Of a stretch of DNA of 36,157 nucleotides, positions 3,595 to 23,504 are shown in pieces. Position numbers and translations under genes: made by a program. The DNA is from Candidatus Rokuibacteriota bacterium (GTDB lineage: Bacteria > Methylomirabilota > Methylomirabilia > Rokubacteriales > CSP1-6), in contig QHTB01000143.1 in the NCBI GenBank assembly GCA_003220615.1, positions 1 through 36,157 on the forward strand, given 5' to 3'. How positions within the stretch are numbered: the first letter of the stretch is position 1; each line of letters starts with the position of its first letter. The notes beneath the pieces were generated by a model, which was not told the DNA's origin, searched no databases, and saw only the letters and a list, made by a program, of their open reading frames with translations.

Positions 3595-5310
3595 ATGGTG
3601 CAGCTCGATCTGCTCGAGCAAAGGCTCGCCGTGCTCGGTGTCGACCGGCGCGAGTTCTTGCGCGTCGCGGCCGGCGTGGTCGCCCTCGGCGCCACCGGCT
3701 TCGGCGCACGGCGCGCCGCCGCGACGCCGCGGCCGGCGCCGGGTGAGCGCCTGGCCAAGGAGCAGATCTTCCGCTACGGCGGCGGTGGCTGGTACCAGAA
3801 AGATCCGTCGAGCCACGACTACAACAAGGACCTCTACTGCCTGGGCGTGCCCGCGCTCTTCGCCGGCCTCCTGAAGTTCAACGCCGATCTCGAGGCGGTC
3901 CCCTACGTCGCGGAGAAGGTGACGTCCAACAAGGAGGCCTCGGTCTGGACGTTCGCCATCCGCAAGGACTCACGCTGGTCCGACGGCACGCCGTGCTCGG
4001 CGCACGACTTCGAATGGTCCTGGAAGCGCCAGCTCGATCCCGCGACGGCCGCGCCGTATGCCGCGTTCCTCTACGACATCAAGAACGCGGAGGCCTTCAA
4101 CAAGAAGCAGATCGCCGACCGCAACCAGGTGGGCGTGCGGGCCAAGGGCGACTTCCTGCTCGAGGTGACGCTGGAAGGGCCGCGCGCCTACTTTCCGGTC
4201 CTCTGCGCCTACCTGGCCGCGCTACCCGGGCACCGGCCCTCGGTCGAGAAGCATGGCGAGAAGTGGACGGAGGCCGCCAACATCGTCGGCAACGGCCCGT
4301 TCGTGCTGGAGAGCTGGGAGCACCATCGGACGATGGTGCTGCGGAAGAACCGGCACTTCTTCGGGGCCAAGGACATCGTCCTCGACAAGGTCGTGATCCC
4401 GATCATCCCGAACACGGCCGGCGCGCTCCCCTACGAGAACAACGAGATCGACATGACGTCGCTCCAGGTCGGCGACCTCAAACGGCTGCAGTCGAATCCC
4501 AAGACGGGCCGCGAGGTCTTCCGCTATCCGTTCCCCGGCACCTGGTACCTGCTTCCCCAGGTGACCAAGCCGCCGTTCGACAACATCAAGGTCCGGCGCG
4601 CCGTGGCCCACGCCATCGACCGCGAGAACGTCGTGAAGGTCGCCCAGGGCTTCGCCGTCCCGGCGCACGCCATGATCCCGCCCGGCGTTCCCGGCTCGCT
4701 CGATGATCCCAAGATCAAAGCGATCCAGCGCTTCGATCCCAAGCTGGCGATGGAGCAGCTCAAGGGCACGCCGTACGAGCGCGGGCGGAACTGGCCGAAG
4801 ATCACGCTGTCGATGCGCGAGCAGGCCCTCGGCTCGAAGCCGCTGGCCGAGGCCATCCAAGCGGTCCTGCTCGAGCACCTGGGCCTGCGCACCGAGCTCG
4901 AGGTGCTGGAGCCGCGGGTGTTCCTCGAGCGCGTGTGGAAGCAGGATCTTCAGTTCATCTGGATCAGCTGGTTCATGGACTACCCGGACCCGCACAACGA
5001 GTACTTCGACACGTTCTACGGCAAGAAGACGACGGGCCGGCGGCAGGCGTGGGTCAACGACACGTTCGATCGCGAGCTCGAGGCCGGCCGCGACACGCGG
5101 GATCAGGCCAAGCGGCTCCAGCACTACGCGCGCGCCGAGGAGATCCTCCAGACCGACGTCGGCTACGTCCCCGTGGCGTGGTTCGTGCGCTACGGGGCGG
5201 CCAAGTCGTGGGTGCGCGGGATCGAGAAGAATCGCCAGGGCGAGCCCGTCATCGAGGGCAACGCCTACGTCGACATGCTCTCGCACCTGTACATCGTCGA
5301 GCGCACGTAG
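3595..5310 (+). CDS. Tat-exported extracellular solute-binding protein, family 5
   Basis: A 571-aa peptide-type periplasmic binding protein (SBP_bac_5). The ATG at 3595 is preferred over the in-frame GTG at 3589 because AGAGGAG (3581-3587) lies 7 nt before it. The N-terminus carries a twin-arginine signal, DRREFLRVAAG (R18-R19), then a hydrophobic stretch, suggesting export in folded form. Family features include FAIRKDSRWSDGTPCSAHDF, the GNGPFVLESWE block and KVRRAVAHAIDRENVVKVAQG. It directly follows the two permease genes and should deliver their substrate. A clear ribosome binding site here contrasts with its absence at oppB. The ligand is unknown; WFMDYPDPHN is common in peptide binders but not diagnostic. 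Confidence 0.9.
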   Translation: MVQLDLLEQRLAVLGVDRREFLRVAAGVVALGATGFGARRAAATPRPAPGERLAKEQIFRYGGGGWYQKDPSSHDYNKDLYCLGVPALFAGLLKFNADLEAVPYVAEKVTSNKEASVWTFAIRKDSRWSDGTPCSAHDFEWSWKRQLDPATAAPYAAFLYDIKNAEAFNKKQIADRNQVGVRAKGDFLLEVTLEGPRAYFPVLCAYLAALPGHRPSVEKHGEKWTEAANIVGNGPFVLESWEHHRTMVLRKNRHFFGAKDIVLDKVVIPIIPNTAGALPYENNEIDMTSLQVGDLKRLQSNPKTGREVFRYPFPGTWYLLPQVTKPPFDNIKVRRAVAHAIDRENVVKVAQGFAVPAHAMIPPGVPGSLDDPKIKAIQRFDPKLAMEQLKGTPYERGRNWPKITLSMREQALGSKPLAEAIQAVLLEHLGLRTELEVLEPRVFLERVWKQDLQFIWISWFMDYPDPHNEYFDTFYGKKTTGRRQAWVNDTFDRELEAGRDTRDQAKRLQHYARAEEILQTDVGYVPVAWFVRYGAAKSWVRGIEKNRQGEPVIEGNAYVDMLSHLYIVERT

Positions 5311-5417
5311 GCGGCTCGCCCTCTCAGCATCGGAGCCTCCACTGCGCCTGGCGGCTTCGGAGCATCCGCTCGATGGCGACGGACCGCCGACGTCAGCGTG
5401 AGTGACATTGCGTTCAT
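5265..5417 (-). CDS. Possible small ORF with consensus ribosome binding site
   Basis: A 50-codon minus-strand frame (begins MNAMSLTLTSAVRRHRADAP, stop TAG at 5267-5265) is preceded by AGGAGG with a 6-nt spacer, one of the best Shine-Dalgarno sites in the window. The last 46 nt are antisense to the 3' end of the binding protein gene. The product has no recognisable domain and no membrane segment. It may be a remnant of a decayed gene, a true small protein, or chance. The rest of the 232-nt gap between 5310 and 5543 shows nothing else convincing except a TATCAT hexamer at 5518-5523 ahead of the next gene. Confidence 0.2.
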   Translation of the reverse strand: MNAMSLTLTSAVRRHRADAPKPPGAVEAPMLRGRAAYVRSTMYRCESMST

Positions 5418-5542
5418 GGTGAGCCTCCTGTGAGCGGTGTGACCCCAGCCGGAGGCGCGCGTGAAATCGTCTCGAGCCGCGAATCTCCCAGAACGTGGCT
5501 CGCATCAAAATGGCGCGTATCATCGCGGACGGAGGGTAAGTC

Positions 5543-5887
5543 ATGCTGGGGGTTGCACTCGTCGTCACCGTGGGTGTCGTGATCTCGATCGGCGTCCGCT
5601 ACCTCGAGCGCCGGCGACTGTGGCGTGAGCGCGCGGAGCACCTCCAGCGTCGTCTCGTCGTCGCGTTGAAGCGGGACACGACGCTGGCCGGGCTCGTCTT
5701 CGTTCCCGAAGTCTCGGTCGATGCCGACGGCGTGACGAACGTCGCGCTCTCCGGGGTGGTGCCGTCCGAGGCCGATCGCGATCGCGTGATGCACGCCGTC
5801 AGGCGTCAGGTGGCGCGACTCTTTCCCGGGGCCACCGTCGACGACGCGATGCAGACGGAACGGCCAGGACAGCGCGCGGCGAGCTAG
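5543..5887 (+). CDS. Small membrane-anchored BON-like protein
   Basis: A 114-aa protein with one N-terminal transmembrane helix (LGVALVVTVGVVISIGVRYL), a basic stretch (ERRRLWRERAEHLQRR), then about 70 residues resembling a single BON repeat: a short helix, PEVSVDADGVTNVALSG, and SEADRDRVMHAVRRQVARL. BON domains are thought to bind membranes or lipids; the function here is unassigned. GGAGGG lies 8 nt before the ATG, and a TATCAT hexamer at 5518-5523 could be its -10. Its TAG stop shares the palindrome CTAG (5884-5887) with the stop of the convergent amidohydrolase gene. Confidence 0.65.
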   Translation: MLGVALVVTVGVVISIGVRYLERRRLWRERAEHLQRRLVVALKRDTTLAGLVFVPEVSVDADGVTNVALSGVVPSEADRDRVMHAVRRQVARLFPGATVDDAMQTERPGQRAAS

Positions 5888-6915
5888 CGTCCGCCAGGCA
5901 ACCGCAGCTTGAGCAGCCGGCGCGCGTTGCCCTCGTAGATCGCCGCCTTGTCCTCGGCGCTCGCCCGCATGCGCTCCATCGCCGCGATCGTGTCCCGCAC
6001 GAAGCCGGGCCCGCGCTCGGGATCGAACGGCATGTCGGTCCCGAACAGGATGTGATCGGCCCCGAAAAAGGCCAGGCCCGATTCCATGGCGTGCCAGGCG
6101 CCGAAAAGCGCGGTGTCACCGTAAAACATCTTGAAGTAGTCGATGGGCCGCTTGCGAAGACGGCCCAGCGCGGTGCCGTCCTCCGGGTCGTCGCTCCGCG
6201 TGCCGAGCTGGTCGAGGCCACCGCCGACTCGCCCCGCGCAGAACGGAATCATCGCGCCCATGTGATGGGTAATGATCACGAGGTCGGGGTGACGGTCGAA
6301 GACGCCTGAGAAGACGAGCCGGCCCATGGCCACCGACGTTTCGTACGGCCAGCCGAACGCCCACCACAGATCGAACTTCGACCGCGGCTCCCCCGCGTAG
6401 TCCGCGACGAGGGCGGGCCGGGCCGGATGCAGCCAGATCGGCAGCCGGCGCTCCGCCATCCGATCGAAGAGCGGCTGGAACTCCGGCAGGTCGAGCGGAC
6501 GACGATTGACGTTGCTGAACATCTGGACACCGGTCGCGCCGAGGTCGCCGATGGCGCGGTCGATCTCCTTCAGGGCCGCATCGGGATTGTTCATGGGCAG
6601 CGACGCGACGAAGGCCGGGAACCGGTCGCGATGCTTGCTCACCAGGGCCGCCATCTCGTCGTTGGCCAGCCGCGCGAGATCGGGCGTCACGTCGGGGCCG
6701 CCGATGACCTCCAGCGGAGGATTGGCCAGCGTGAGGACCTGCACGTACCCCTCGTAGCGATCCATGATCCTGAAGCGCTGCTCCACGTCCACCAGGACGG
6801 GGATCCCGCTCATCCGCTTCTGGAGCGTGAGGCCGGGCGGCGCGACCGCGAGCATCCGGTCGAAGAACTTCCGCGGCATGATGTGAGGGAACACGTCGAT
6901 TTTGGTCGTCGTCAC
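5884..6915 (-). CDS. Amidohydrolase-2 family protein (decarboxylase/hydrolase type)
   Basis: A 343-aa TIM-barrel metal-dependent enzyme of the family that contains ACMSD and gamma-resorcylate decarboxylase. Expected metal or catalytic residues are present at H163 (IWLHPARP), H217/H218 (VIITHHMGAM) and D294 (ILFGTDMPFD). At the N-terminus, where family members usually have HxH, this protein reads IDVFPHIMP, so the first histidine is Phe9 and only H11 remains. The GTG start at 6915 overlaps the TGA of the TRAP permease gene (GTGA), implying translational coupling. Encoded last in a cluster with a UbiD-type decarboxylase and a TAXI-TRAP transporter, it may act on the imported carboxylic acid or a downstream intermediate. 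Substrate unknown. Confidence 0.8.
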   Translation of the reverse strand: MTTTKIDVFPHIMPRKFFDRMLAVAPPGLTLQKRMSGIPVLVDVEQRFRIMDRYEGYVQVLTLANPPLEVIGGPDVTPDLARLANDEMAALVSKHRDRFPAFVASLPMNNPDAALKEIDRAIGDLGATGVQMFSNVNRRPLDLPEFQPLFDRMAERRLPIWLHPARPALVADYAGEPRSKFDLWWAFGWPYETSVAMGRLVFSGVFDRHPDLVIITHHMGAMIPFCAGRVGGGLDQLGTRSDDPEDGTALGRLRKRPIDYFKMFYGDTALFGAWHAMESGLAFFGADHILFGTDMPFDPERGPGFVRDTIAAMERMRASAEDKAAIYEGNARRLLKLRLPGGR

Positions 6916-17187: not shown

Positions 17188-19860
17188 TCACAGCGGTTGC
17201 ACCAGCGCCTGCTCGAGTGTCTGCCGCAAGCGCTCGAGGGCGTCCGGATCCTCCACGCGGCGGCCCTGGCCATCGTGGACGTAGAACGTGTCGTAGGCCT
17301 GATCGATCTCGGTGGCGATGCGCGCGCTGCCGATGTCGAGGCCGCACGCCGACAGCGTGCGCGTGATGAGATAGAGCAGGCCGAGACGATCGGGACACTT
17401 CACTTCCACGACCGTGAACGCATCGCTCAAGGTGTTGTCGATGCTGATCCGGGGCGACTCGGGCACGACGGTCGGCAGCCGGCCGGCGGCGCGGCGGCGC
17501 TCGAGCAGGGCGTCCACGCTCTCCTCGCCGGTCAACACGGAGCGCAGCGCGGCCAGCGTGCGCCGCCAGTGGGCCGGCGAGGTGATGGTCTCGCCGGTCG
17601 GATCGTTCACCTGGAAGGTGTCGATCGCGATGCCGTCGCCCCGCGTGGAGATCTGCGCCGAGATGATGTTGATGCCGTGGGCGGCCAGCGTGCCGGCGAT
17701 CAGCGAGAAGAGACCAGGCAAGTCCCGGGTGACGACGACCAGATCCGAGCTGCCCAGATCGGGATGATGAAACAGCTCGGTCGCCACCGGCGCCTCCTCG
17801 AGGCGCTGGAGCAAGCGCAGGTGCTCGGCGATGCGCTGGGCGCTCGTCGTCGCCAGATAGCGCTCCGACATCATGGCCAGGTGGCCCTTCACCGCCTGCA
17901 CGGACACGTCCTGCTTGACGAGGGGCACCACGCGATCGGCGAGCACCGCGCGGTTCGGGCGCTCGAGACGGCCGCCGGTCACGCGCGCCATCGTCCGTGC
18001 GTAGAGCTCGTGCAGGATCACCGCCTGCCACGGCGTGAGGACTCCCGGCCCCACCGCGCGCATGTCGGCCCACGTGAGCAGGTAGAGCATCCGGAGCCGC
18101 TGGGGATCGCCCACGGCGGCGGCGAAGTCGGCGATCGTTTTCGGATCGTCGATGTCCCGGCGCTGGGCCACGTGGGACATCGTGAGGTGATGGGCGACGA
18201 GGAACTCGACGACGGCGGCGGCGGCGGCGGGCAGGTCGAGGCGCGTGCAGAGCGCCTGGATGAGCGGGATGCCTTTCTTGACGTGGCCATGGCCCTTGGC
18301 CTTGCCGATGTCGTGTAGCAGCATGCCGAGCATCAGCAGCTCCGGCTTCTCCACCTCGCTGAAGACCTGCGCCGCTCCCTCGGACTCCGCCGACTGGCCG
18401 GGCGCCAACGCCTCCATGTGCTCGACGGCCAGCAGCGAGTGCTGGTCGGCCGAGAACTTGTGGTAGACGTCGTACTGCACCAGACACGTCAGCGCGCCGA
18501 ACTCGGGCAGATAGCGTCCGAGGACGCCGAGCTCGTGCATCTCCGAGAGCGTCACCGCCACCCGCCCCCACGTCCGGCAGATGTCGAGGAACAGCTCCCG
18601 CACCGCGGGCGAGCTGCGGAAGTCGTCGTCGATCAGGTCGAGCGACTCCTCGACCGCCCGCTCGAGCTCGACGGACAGCTCACACCCGAGCCGATGCAGA
18701 TGCCAGAACACCTTCATGAGCCGCGTCGGATTGGCGGCGAACACCGCGCTGTCGCGGTCGGCGAGATAGAGGCGCCCGTCGATGAAGACCAGGCCGTCGG
18801 CCAGCGCCTGATGACGGTTGCGCCGCTCGGCGACGCCACGCACGGTGACCGTCTCCTGGCAGCGCGCGATGAGCCGGCGCGAGACGCGATGAATGGCGCG
18901 CGCGTGCAGGTAGTACTCGCGCATGAACCGCTCGACGTCGAGGCTGCGCTCGTCGCCCTCGTAGCCGAAGTTCCGCGCGATGGCCGGCTGCACGTCCCGG
19001 CCGAGCACGTCGTTCTTGTGGCCGGCGAGGAAATGAAGCTCGTTGCGAACGCGCCAGAGGAAGGTGAGGGCGGCGTCCGTCTGCGCTTGCTCGCGTGGCG
19101 TGATCAACCCCTTGTCGTTGAGCTCGCGCAGCGTGCGCGTGCCGAACTTCGCGGCGGCCAGCCACATCGCCGTGTGCATGTCGCGCAGGCCGCCCGCCGA
19201 CTCCTTGATGTTCGGCTCGCCGATGTAGGGCGACGCGCCGTACTTACGGTACCGCTGGTCGCGCTCGGCCAGGGTCGCCGCCAGGAACTGCTCGAAGTCG
19301 CGCTGGTAGACGTTCTCCTCGAGCACTCGACGGAACCGGGCGAACAGCCGGCGGTCGCCGGCGAGGAACCTCGCCGCCTGCATGGACGTTCGACTGGCGA
19401 GGTCGGTCCGGGCGATCGCGACACAGTCCGGCAGCGAGCGCAGGCTGTGGCCGATCTGGAGTCCGAGGTCCCACAGCGTATAGAGCAGCTCCTGGGTCAC
19501 CCGCTGGACGTACGGGGACAGCTCAGCGTCGTAGATCACCATGAGGTCGATGTCGGACGACGGATGGAGCTCGCCGCGGCCGTAACCGCCCAGGGCGATG
19601 ACGACGAACGGGGTTGCCGCCAGACCATTGGTGTCGCTTGTAATGAGCTTCGTCAACGACTTCACGAGGTCGTCCACCACGCGGGCGTGGGCCTGCACGG
19701 ACTCCTGGCCGGAGGCGCCACCGGCGTGCATAACCTTCACGGAGTCGAGCCCCTCGGCGAGGGCAGCACGGAAGAAGTCGAGCCGGAGTCGCCGCCGGTC
19801 GTCCGCGCGGTCGGCCTTGGCCTCGGCGCGCCGGGCCCGGCGATACAGCTCGGGCGACAT
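17188..19860 (-). CDS. glnD: Bifunctional uridylyltransferase/uridylyl-removing enzyme GlnD
   Basis: An 890-aa nitrogen-status sensor that uridylylates and de-uridylylates PII. Domains in order: nucleotidyltransferase with GGYGRGELHPSSDIDL (91-106), the GlnD PII-uridylyltransferase helical region with NIKESAGGLRDMHT, an HD hydrolase domain with MLLHDIGKAKGHGH near residue 515, and two C-terminal ACT domains (starting near LVVVTRDLPGLFSLIAG and TVVEVKCPDRLGLLYLITR) that bind glutamine. Length is normal for the family. The ATG at 19860 has no ribosome binding site but sits just after a good promoter. The phosphatidyltransferase-transglycosylase gene follows 13 nt downstream, probably in the same transcript. 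Confidence 0.95.
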   Translation of the reverse strand: MSPELYRRARRAEAKADRADDRRRLRLDFFRAALAEGLDSVKVMHAGGASGQESVQAHARVVDDLVKSLTKLITSDTNGLAATPFVVIALGGYGRGELHPSSDIDLMVIYDAELSPYVQRVTQELLYTLWDLGLQIGHSLRSLPDCVAIARTDLASRTSMQAARFLAGDRRLFARFRRVLEENVYQRDFEQFLAATLAERDQRYRKYGASPYIGEPNIKESAGGLRDMHTAMWLAAAKFGTRTLRELNDKGLITPREQAQTDAALTFLWRVRNELHFLAGHKNDVLGRDVQPAIARNFGYEGDERSLDVERFMREYYLHARAIHRVSRRLIARCQETVTVRGVAERRNRHQALADGLVFIDGRLYLADRDSAVFAANPTRLMKVFWHLHRLGCELSVELERAVEESLDLIDDDFRSSPAVRELFLDICRTWGRVAVTLSEMHELGVLGRYLPEFGALTCLVQYDVYHKFSADQHSLLAVEHMEALAPGQSAESEGAAQVFSEVEKPELLMLGMLLHDIGKAKGHGHVKKGIPLIQALCTRLDLPAAAAAVVEFLVAHHLTMSHVAQRRDIDDPKTIADFAAAVGDPQRLRMLYLLTWADMRAVGPGVLTPWQAVILHELYARTMARVTGGRLERPNRAVLADRVVPLVKQDVSVQAVKGHLAMMSERYLATTSAQRIAEHLRLLQRLEEAPVATELFHHPDLGSSDLVVVTRDLPGLFSLIAGTLAAHGINIISAQISTRGDGIAIDTFQVNDPTGETITSPAHWRRTLAALRSVLTGEESVDALLERRRAAGRLPTVVPESPRISIDNTLSDAFTVVEVKCPDRLGLLYLITRTLSACGLDIGSARIATEIDQAYDTFYVHDGQGRRVEDPDALERLRQTLEQALVQPL

Positions 19861-19870
19861 GACGAGGCAG

Positions 19871-19900
19871 AGCGTAGCAATCCGCGGCGAATACTGTCAA
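19871..19900 (-). promoter_or_regulatory. glnD promoter
   Basis: On the minus strand TTGACA (19900-19895) is a perfect -35, followed by 18 nt and TACGCT (19876-19871). The -10 ends 10 nt before the glnD ATG, so the leader would be only a few bases. Confidence 0.5.
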
Positions 19901-19917
19901 ATCGGACGCGGACTTAT

Positions 19918-19923
19918 TACAAT
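19918..19923 (+). promoter_or_regulatory. -10 element of hisC
   Basis: TACAAT (5 of 6 matches to TATAAT) ends 6 nt before the hisC ATG at 19930, predicting transcription start at or next to the A of ATG. No clear TTGACA-like -35 on this strand. The 69-nt glnD-hisC gap thus holds two divergent, near-leaderless promoters. Confidence 0.4.
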
Positions 19924-19929
19924 GCCAAG

Positions 19930-21006
19930 ATGCGACGCATTTGGCGTGCTGCGGTCGACCGTATTGCCCCGTATGACCCTGGCCGGCCACTGGAGGCGCT
20001 CGCCTCCGATCTAGGCCGAACCGACCTCGTCCGGCTGTCGGCCAATGAGAGCCCGCTCGGCCCCTCGCCTCGCGTCGTCGAGGCGATTGCGCGCGAGGCC
20101 GCCCGCGTCCACCTCTATCCTGACGGTGGCTCGACCTCGCTGCGCGAGGCGCTGGCAGCGCGGCTGGGTGTGGCCCCCGCCCAGATCGTCGTCGGTAACG
20201 GCGCCGACGAGCTGCTCGCGCTCATCGGTTGGGCAGCCCTGGAGCCGGGCGACGAGGTGATCATCCCCCAGCCCTCCTTCGAGCCCTACACGACCGTGGT
20301 CGAGCTGATGGCCGCCCGGGTGGTTCCAAGCCCGCTGGCGAAGTACGAGACCGATCTGGACGACATGGCCAGCCGATTGACGGCGAGGACGAAGGCGATC
20401 GTGCTGTGCTCGCCACACAACCCGGCCGGCACGATCATCCGCCGCGCGCCGCTGACGGCCTTCCTCGACGCTCTCGGTAACGACGCGCCGCTGACCCTCC
20501 TCGACGAGGCCTACTGCGACTTCTGCGACGATCCCGAATATCCCGACGGCATCACGTTGCTGGCTCACTACCCCCGCCTGATCCTGCTGCGGACGTTTTC
20601 GAAGATCGCGGGGCTCGCCGGCCTGCGCGTCGGCTACACGGTGGCCACCGCCGACGTCGCCGAGCGGCTCAATCGCGTGCGCGCGCCCTACAACGTGAAC
20701 CGTCTCGGACAGGTCGCCGCACTCGCCGCGCTCGAGGATCGCGCCCACTGGGAGCGCACCCGGGACGTGGTGATCCGCGAGCGCGCATTTCTCTCCCGCG
20801 AGTTGTCTCGCCGCGGCTTCGGCTTCCCGCCGTCGCAGGCGAACTTCCTGCTGGTGCAAGTGCCGCAGGCGAGCGCCGTGCTCCAGCGCCTGCTGCGCGC
20901 CGGGATCATCGTGCGTGATGGCGCGGCCGTCGGATTCCCTGACCACTTGCGGATCGCCGTTGGGGATCACGCGGCGAACGTGCGCCTGCTCGAGGCGTTG
21001 GCCTGA
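19930..21006 (+). CDS. hisC: Histidinol-phosphate aminotransferase
   Basis: A 358-aa fold-type I PLP aminotransferase. Diagnostic segments: RLSANESPLGPSPRV and YPDGGSTSLREALAARLGV at the N-terminus, VVGNGADELLALI, CSPHNPAGT, LLDEAYCDF, and the Schiff-base lysine in LRTFSKIAGLAGLRVGY. Expected to convert imidazole-acetol phosphate and glutamate to histidinol phosphate; some HisC-like enzymes also transaminate aromatic amino acids, and no other his genes are nearby to decide. The ATG at 19930 is chosen because the residues upstream of it are not conserved-looking and a -10 element ends 6 nt before it. The open frame extends far upstream only by chance, antisense to glnD. Confidence 0.88.
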   Translation: MRRIWRAAVDRIAPYDPGRPLEALASDLGRTDLVRLSANESPLGPSPRVVEAIAREAARVHLYPDGGSTSLREALAARLGVAPAQIVVGNGADELLALIGWAALEPGDEVIIPQPSFEPYTTVVELMAARVVPSPLAKYETDLDDMASRLTARTKAIVLCSPHNPAGTIIRRAPLTAFLDALGNDAPLTLLDEAYCDFCDDPEYPDGITLLAHYPRLILLRTFSKIAGLAGLRVGYTVATADVAERLNRVRAPYNVNRLGQVAALAALEDRAHWERTRDVVIRERAFLSRELSRRGFGFPPSQANFLLVQVPQASAVLQRLLRAGIIVRDGAAVGFPDHLRIAVGDHAANVRLLEALA

Positions 21007-22429: not shown

Positions 22430-23104
22430 ATGGCGTCGGGCTATGCCGTCAAGCAGGCTGCGGACCTGATGGATGCCGCGTTCCTCGCTCGGTGGACGGA
22501 TCGGGAGGCGATCGGTCCGCTCGCCCGCCGGGCGCTCGGCGTGATCATCCGTCGCCTGGCCGCCGGCGAAGGCGCGCTGCCCGTCACGGGCTTGTTCCCT
22601 GATCTCGCTCCGGGCGAGGTCGCCGACGCCATCGCCGAGCTCGATCACCACGACCTGGTTCTGGTGGAGGCGGGCGCCGTCGTCCTCGCCTATCCGTTCA
22701 GCGCCCGCCCCAACGCGTTTCGTCTCGAGCCGGGCGACCGGCGCCCTCGGTACGCGTGCTGCGCGACCGACGCCCTGGGGGTCGCGGCGCTGATGGGCGA
22801 AGCGGTCACGATCCACTCCCGCTGCCACGACTGCGGCGACCCACTCGTGCTGCGCACCGGGCCCGAGGGGCCGCTCGAGCCCACGACGGCGATGGTCTGG
22901 GTGGGCACGCGTGAGGACATCCGGGCCAAGGCGTGCGCCGGCCTCTGACACACGATCAACTTCTTCCGGTCGGAAGAGCATCTCGGTCGGTGGTGGAACG
23001 CGACGCGAGCCGACGGCGCCGCCGCGACCGTGGTCGAGACGTTCAAGGTGGCTGCCGAGGTCTTCGGCCGGCGCCTTCCCAGACTGGCGGGACTGCGAGA
23101 TTAA
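22430..23104 (+). CDS. MerB-like (alkylmercury lyase family) selenoprotein, UGA at 22946-22948
   Basis: Read through one in-frame TGA, this is a 224-aa protein close in length to MerB (212 aa). An N-terminal winged-helix-like region is followed by YACCATDALGVAALMGEAV and IHSRCHDCGDPL, which line up without gaps with MerB YAWCALDTL...SSHC: C111 matches Cys96, D114 matches Asp99, C132 matches Cys117. After KACAGL comes TGA (codon 173), then HTINFFRSEEHLGRWW; aligning FF with MerB CCHVHFF puts the TGA on catalytic Cys159. The frame continues 51 codons with ETFKVAAEVFGRRL, like MerB VHEAFGLGQEFNRHL, to TAA at 23102-23104. A SECIS-like hairpin follows the TGA. MerB cleaves carbon-mercury bonds; the substrate here is unproven. 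Start at ATG 22430, with a TATCCT hexamer 7 nt upstream. Confidence 0.8.
22961..22978 (+). promoter_or_regulatory. Bacterial SECIS-like element in the MerB-like gene
   Basis: Twelve nt after the TGA, TTCTTCC (22961-22967) pairs with GGAAGAG (22972-22978): six Watson-Crick pairs and one G-U, closing a GGTC tetraloop (22968-22971). The loop begins 19 nt after the TGA. From memory, the E. coli fdhF SECIS also presents GGUC in its loop about 18 nt after its UGA, so position and loop agree with a SelB-binding site. Confidence 0.75.
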
Positions 23105-23412
23105 CGGCGACGCGCGCGGGCCGCGGCCAGCTCGCGCTCGAGGTCCTCGACGCGGCGGGCGAGCTCGTCGCGCTCGGTGCGCAGCGCATTGAGCTGTTGC
23201 TCGCGCGCCAACCCTCGCTGCTCCTGCTGAGCGAGCGTCGTCTGCAGCGCCGCCTCTCGGGCATAGACGTCCTTCATCTCGGCCTCGAGACGCGTCATCC
23301 GTTGCTTGGCGGGAAGCCAACCGGCAAAGAGCGTGTAGGCGAGGAGCCCGGCCAGCAGGACCGCGGCGACGACGATGAGCCAGGGAGTCCTTCGACGAGG
23401 CTCGGCGACCAC
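23101..23412 (-). CDS. Membrane-anchored coiled-coil protein
   Basis: About 103 aa: a short basic N-terminus (EPRRRTPW), one transmembrane helix (LIVVAAVLLAGLLAYTLFAG) and a long coiled coil (RMTRLEAEMKDVYAREAALQ onward, ending ELAAARARRR). A FtsB/DivIC-like or general tethering architecture; function unknown. The start is taken as GTG 23412 because TAAAAT (23426-23421) ends 8 nt upstream, the leaderless pattern seen elsewhere; a TTG at 23430 is possible. Its TAA stop shares the palindrome TTAA (23101-23104) with the TAA of the MerB-like gene on the other strand. Confidence 0.6.
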   Translation of the reverse strand: MVAEPRRRTPWLIVVAAVLLAGLLAYTLFAGWLPAKQRMTRLEAEMKDVYAREAALQTTLAQQEQRGLAREQQLNALRTERDELARRVEDLERELAAARARRR

Positions 23413-23504
23413 GGCCCGTGATTTTAGCAAACGGGCCGGCGGAGCCGCGCAAGCGATCTGCTATGATCGAATCGAGAAGCTTCAGCGGACGAGGGAGGAC
23501 ACTC

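Follow-up and report, generated by a model that had tools for sequence, protein, structure and literature searches.

A MerB-like gene of a Rokubacteriales bacterium with a predicted selenocysteine at the position of the catalytic Cys159

In a 36,157-nucleotide stretch from a Candidatus Rokuibacteriota bacterium (contig QHTB01000143.1 of assembly GCA_003220615.1; hereafter the window), we analyzed a gene for a homolog of the organomercurial lyase MerB that carries an in-frame TGA. An earlier examination of the letters alone (the sequence-only reading) had located this TGA and proposed that it specifies selenocysteine (Sec) at the catalytic Cys of a MerB-like protein; our analysis agrees on the gene, its frame, and the codon and supports the proposed decoding. 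Readthrough of the TGA adds 51 codons up to a TAA (Table 1), and the extended frame ends, as had been observed, at a TTAA (positions 23101 to 23104) that is also the stop of a convergent minus-strand open reading frame (ORF; 23101 to 23430). Conventional gene calling ends the gene at the TGA.

The protein scores 87.3 bits against the PF03243 profile (gathering score, 27), and both a structure model and structure comparison support the MerB fold, with 19 to 26% identity to solved MerB structures (PDB codes 3f0o, 3fn8, and 5c17, the last being MerB2). Cys96, Asp99, and Cys159 of MerB are termed essential in PMC8261052, and the screen described there requires these three together with Cys117. Three of the four are kept in the window protein, at the residues that the sequence-only reading had picked out (C111, D114, and C132), and the fourth is the predicted Sec; the fold alignment used (A1) consists of P0001 and 65 of 152 listed homologs. 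The earlier placement of the TGA on Cys159, anchored on an FF pair, also holds: the protein reads GLU-HTINFF, so that U173 lies five residues ahead of the FF pair, the same spacing as that of Cys159 in MerB, and the Cys of the FCSHVHFF segment in the C160S mutant chain 3f2g falls at the place of U173.

Table 1. Coordinates of the MerB-like gene, its predicted decoding signals and active-site residues, and a representative mer-like locus of a relative
Feature	Location	Strand	Remarks
MerB-like selenoprotein gene, 224 residues if codon 173 (TGA) is Sec	22430..23104	+	ATG at 22430; stop TAA 23102-23104
In-frame TGA, predicted Sec codon, MerB Cys159 column	22946..22948	+	Codon 173
Predicted bacterial SECIS, 7-pair stem and GGTC loop (22968-22971)	22961..22978	+	19 nt from TGA to loop
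C111, equivalent of MerB Cys96 (other catalytic thiol)	22760..22762	+	Column invariant in both alignments
D114, equivalent of MerB Asp99	22769..22771	+	Invariant in one alignment, nearly invariant in the other
C132, equivalent of MerB Cys117	22823..22825	+	Both alignments
C135, second Cys of an invariant CxxC pair	22832..22834	+	Both alignments; this segment reads CAATG in the solved MerB chain 1s6l
Mer-like operon loci: MerB-like (Sec or Cys), Grx-like, LysW-like, MerF, MerT-like	L018:117-1933	-	Also L021, L063, L064, L057, L059, and others

A search of 95 genomes of the phylum recovered matches in 49. The first set of loci comprised 60 rows, five of them without a readable site (L032 twice, the second pieces of L033 and L034, and L076); with a site finder that recognizes U or Cys only, the codon 173 column of the 55 readable loci is TGA in 43 and Cys in 12, and the 13 further loci from a second search with a paralog as the query (matches in 51 of the 95 genomes) gave 12 TGA and 1 Cys. 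Thirty rows read without preselection gave 27 TGA, 1 TGC, 1 TGT, and 1 gap-shifted CCC beside a TGA, with neither TAA nor TAG at the column. The TGA recurs in a sister species (the same-genus genome G006; gene match, 83 to 84%), and among 94 stretches a single relative, likewise at 83 to 84%, was recovered (record MNEG01000048.1, Candidatus Rokubacteria bacterium 13_1_40CM_68_15). Homologs thus extend beyond codon 173 and carry Cys or TGA at that place, as the check proposed with the sequence-only reading had anticipated, and across relatives the protein sequence of the tail is kept while silent sites have changed. Among 152 listed protein homologs (33 from one search and the best 120 of 721 from another, with one shared; protein sequences only), 39 have Cys at the column, 1 has Ser, and 112 are shorter. 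The shorter ones terminate exactly one residue ahead of the column in 102 cases, which we read as truncation by gene callers at a TGA; a cluster of 65 sequences with 97% identity (P0002) terminates at the same residue, which speaks against a sequencing error at the TGA. On a tree of 73 rows (54 loci, L054 of the 55 being too short, and 19 Cys proteins, the twentieth, P0028, having yielded no site), the Sec/Cys label requires six changes (five to seven in bootstraps), so that Sec and Cys seem to swap between relatives; the well-supported branches alone force one change, with 16 of 69 inner branches open. Proteins P0029 to P0034 are MerB-MerT fusions (PF03243 and PF02411), and the five of them placed on the tree have Cys at the column.

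The predicted Sec insertion sequence (SECIS) is the 7-bp stem with a GGTC loop that had already been pointed out; it lies 13 to 30 nt past the TGA and pairs TTCTTCC with GGAAGAG, including one T-G pair. The bacterial SECIS model quoted in PMC13188914 has a G within the first two loop positions, a spacing of 16 to 37 nt, an upper stem of 4 to 16 bp, and a minimum free energy of -7.5 or better. The window element agrees with it in spacing (19 nt), loop (GGTC), and stem (7 pairs) and is borderline in energy, the bare stem having -7.5 or -7.1 kcal/mol in two scorings and a 57-nt stretch having -16.4. With the energy threshold set at -6 kcal/mol (our own choice; the published value is -7.5), 210 of the 843 TGA triplets of the window are followed by a stem that satisfies the otherwise loose limits of the literature, and a stem alone is therefore weak evidence. 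Adding a GGTC apex to the same criterion leaves 6 of the 843 triplets (and 107 of 10312 sampled positions), of which only codon 173 has coherent coding on both sides, as judged by eye. Among the relatives, 41 of the 42 TGA loci with enough sequence have a stem that reaches at least this stability (-6 kcal/mol), and none of the 12 Cys loci has one. Taken pair by pair, the inner six can form in 41 or 42 of these 42 TGA loci; the corresponding counts for the 12 Cys loci, read from the loop outward, are 3, 6, 8, 6, 12, and 12. Silent sites were compared among loci of the NFFRS/NFFQS type, 26 with TGA and 2 with Cys: the CGG, TCG, and GAA codons are fixed in the 26 NFFRS-type TGA loci (GAA in 25 of 25 readable), and GAA is used for 35 of 183 Glu residues in the upstream parts of these 28 genes. 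A separate Sec-MerB lineage (f10; L061 to L065 and L067) has the loop GTAC with its own stem instead of GGTC; L063, the one member scanned, additionally has an N-terminal IclR-type helix-turn-helix match.

The Sec machinery, for which the sequence-only reading had suggested looking, was recovered in the same genome: tRNA-Sec (69.7 bits), selA (594 bits), and selB (365 bits) lie within 5 kb on one contig (C54; L098), and selD (345 bits; L099, contig C152) itself has an in-frame TGA. Across the phylum, selA is above the cutoff in 83 of the 95 genomes and in 36 of the 38 genomes with a read TGA locus.

The genome also encodes a second MerB-like gene with an in-frame TGA (L072, positions 5944 to 6663 on the plus strand, contig C154), with Glu at the Asp99 column. 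In the family to which it belongs (family 2), TGA occupies the Cys159 column in 10 of 10 aligned loci, and Glu stands for Asp99 in nine. The exception, L073 of the sister species (4913 to 5611 on the minus strand, G006:C148), keeps Asp99 and carries two TGA codons, one in the Cys96 column and one in the Cys159 column, and a stem capped by GGTC lies after each; the stem after the Cys96-column TGA has -7.7 kcal/mol, and the nine family 2 relatives with Cys at that column have -5.8 kcal/mol at best there. L073 possibly encodes a double-Sec enzyme. In another genus, a distant MerB-like gene without a PDB match (L146, 473 to 1219 on the minus strand, G022:C471; PF03243, 1.6e-10) also has TGA at both catalytic columns and Asp99 kept; the loop of its first stem is CGTGC (-9.0 kcal/mol), and that of its second is GGTC (just -5.0 kcal/mol).

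In the window itself, a Pfam scan of 10 ORFs recovered one gene-sized domain, an aminotransferase (18418 to 21006), and left nine without a domain above the cutoff (eight with nothing, and one with a coiled-coil and others below the cutoff); an Rfam scan of positions 22800 to 23150 gave a single match at chance level (E = 1.9). Among the relatives, 15 of the 43 loci with TGA and 10 of the 12 with Cys have at least one of four mer-like genes nearby on the same strand. A glutaredoxin (Grx)-like gene adjoins 13 TGA and 10 Cys loci, a zinc ribbon gene adjoins 11 and 9, a MerF-like gene adjoins 10 and 5, and a MerT-like gene adjoins 8 and 5, these counts being lower bounds with flanks of often just 1.5 kb. 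Often, merB is followed by Grx, zinc ribbon, MerF, and MerT in that order, and in the f10 loci MerF precedes Grx. The Grx-like neighbors contain exactly one TGA within the match in 23 of 23 cases, with a UxxC motif in the examples examined. The zinc ribbon is LysW-like by Pfam and has zero to two TGAs (some counts include the stop), and both MerF neighbors scanned pass the NCBIfam cutoff (55 and 81 versus 50 bits). This neighborhood has the appearance of a mercury operon that includes several predicted selenoproteins. We had earlier concluded from an all-versus-all comparison of 20 stretches (the window and 19 loci) that no neighbor recurs outside the genus; this was overturned, 41 ORFs having homologs near MerB elsewhere. 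The operon genes were at first overlooked because several of these small genes contain TGA or appeared only as antisense ORFs.

MerB-like selenoproteins as a kind are known, since they already stand in reviews: the lists of selenoproteins include an "alkylmercury lyase MerB-like protein" (PMC9312934) and "SaoL, motif CU" (PMC13188914), so that the remark of the sequence-only reading that none was known to have been described does not stand. SaoL (NF040728), named an organometallic rather than a mercury lyase, belongs to the SAO operon, which these sources give as having six selenoprotein genes. It resembles our protein, as predicted here, in being a MerB-related selenoprotein, and relatives of the window gene likewise adjoin other predicted selenoprotein genes; moreover, the last position of the SaoL profile (159 of 159) falls on the residue of the second TGA in L073, suggesting the same Sec column. 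On the other hand, in the TGA loci of the 55-locus set the residue ahead of U is not the Cys of the CU motif, the SaoL profile is above its cutoff in 0 of the 95 phylum genomes, and the genes alongside encode Grx-like, LysW-like, MerF, and MerT-like proteins rather than the Sao proteins that the source lists (of the Sao profiles, only SaoL was searched). From MerB and the mer operon, the window gene differs by a predicted Sec for Cys159, by the extra invariant Cys135, and by standing alone. Other Sec families, several of them tied to mercury or metals in the literature (UXX-star and YruB Grx-like, MerT- and MerP-like, and HgcA/HgcB), have folds other than the MerB-like one; two scanned Grx-like neighbors fall below the Uxx_star (50 to 58 of 66 bits) and YruB (72 to 85 of 88.55 bits) cutoffs. 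Plasmid searches with tblastn gave 531 and 80 records, all below 60% identity; where named, the 40 and 20 matches listed are MerB, MerBA, mercury(II) reductase, or alkylmercury lyase, and none is SaoL. Among the papers listed in our literature searches, we found no MerB selenoprotein from Rokubacteria or Methylomirabilota, no Sec at Cys159 of MerB, and neither the mer-like operon of this lineage nor the double TGA, and the main texts of PMC5029168 and PMC12013277 contain no MerB or mercury terms. Earlier work on SaoL and selenoprotein neighborhoods may overlap with the operon, and a Methylomirabilota metagenome-assembled genome with 63 predicted selenoprotein genes, according to PMC13188914, may contain the Sec-MerB family.

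We consider it probable that the window gene encodes a MerB-fold protein whose UGA at the Cys159 position is read as Sec. The product would then be an enzyme that depends on selenium and probably cleaves carbon-mercury bonds; mercury would be its substrate, a reading helped by the operons of the relatives. Several observations weigh against this. At an E value of 1e-5, nothing mer-like lies near the window gene or the relatives closest to it (L010, L011, and L014 to L016; more widely L081, L082, and L084), nor near the 10 family 2 loci, and the MerT-like neighbors elsewhere have the CC pair but score 21 to 28 of 32.9 bits, below the Pfam cutoff. The protein itself is below the cutoffs of the MerB equivalog models NF009710 and NF033555 (57 of 193 and 52 of 200 bits) and of the SaoL profile (47 of 140 bits, profile positions 48 to 127), its own genome has no MerA match above the cutoff (best, 325 of 454), and residues 161 to 170 beside Sec have a predicted local distance difference test score of 53 in the model. 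At the published -7.5 kcal/mol, the bare stem is present in 33 of 42 TGA loci (and 0 of 12 Cys loci), and the stem pairs hardly covary, there being little variation to count, so that conservation carries the SECIS argument. As selA is common across the phylum, its presence in genomes with TGA loci discriminates little, and two such genomes (G022, which carries L146, and G042; 78% and 81% complete, respectively) have neither selA nor tRNA-Sec above the cutoff (highest tRNA-Sec scores, 46.2 and 41.5 bits against a cutoff of 47). The Cys form, too, occurs together with selA in 8 of 11 genomes, and Sec is therefore not required; one full-length homolog (P0105) has Ser at the column with FFRSEEH retained.

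The low scores against the MerB models, the solitary setting of the gene, and the absence of a MerA match above the cutoff, along with the extra invariant CxxC and the naming of SaoL as an organometallic lyase, favor a selenoprotein that acts on another organometal or a metal(loid), or only binds metal. We regard this as unlikely, if deserving of some weight: all four residues of the PMC8261052 screen are kept, the last as the predicted Sec, the same source counts 895 genomes with MerB and without MerA, and the finding of MerF and MerT-like genes beside the relatives raised the odds for mercury at the expense of this alternative. A UGA that is a true stop, leaving a 172-residue product without the catalytic residue or a broken gene, would account for the point at which gene callers and 102 of the 112 shortened homologs end. 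It would sit very poorly with a tail kept at the protein level, a codon that alternates between TGA and Cys with no TAA or TAG in 30 rows, the locked silent sites of the stem, and the presence of Sec machinery, and we hold it to be highly improbable. We give marginally less credence still to the idea that a near-cognate tRNA for Trp or Cys decodes the UGA with no need of a SECIS, or that UGA is reassigned throughout the genome: L072 terminates at a TGA past its own in-frame TGA, and UGA therefore still stops in this genome, while the GGTC stem goes with the TGA genes and the Sec machinery is present.

If the UGA is read as Sec, the parts found suggest that SelB would bind the GGUC stem-loop and bring Sec-tRNA, which SelA would make using selenophosphate from SelD. 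If the chemistry resembles that of MerB, the selenolate of Sec173 and the thiolate of Cys111 would take the metal of the organomercurial, Asp114 would aid protonation of the leaving carbon, and the metal would then be passed to cellular thiols or selenols; in the relatives, the hand-over partners may be the adjoining Grx-like and zinc ribbon selenoproteins and the MerF/MerT-like transporters. For Methylomirabilota at large, we lean slightly toward a selenium-based mercury resistance built on Sec-MerB, accompanied in many genomes by MerF, a MerT-like transporter, a selenocysteine-containing glutaredoxin, and a zinc ribbon that has as many as two Sec residues. In such a system, some lyases with Sec at both the Cys96 and Cys159 positions would be diselenolate lyases on two distant branches (L073 and L146).

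The affinity of mercury for selenium far exceeds that for sulfur, and an enzyme that takes mercury by a selenolate must still release it; among the relatives, the same fold occurs with predicted Sec, with Cys, and possibly with two Sec residues, which makes this trade-off between binding and release testable. Listed proteins such as P0135, a 166-residue database entry named "organomercurial lyase," stop just short of the catalytic residue, and a screen that demands Cys159 would therefore miss them. The Sec-MerB family may widen the known range of demethylation genes.
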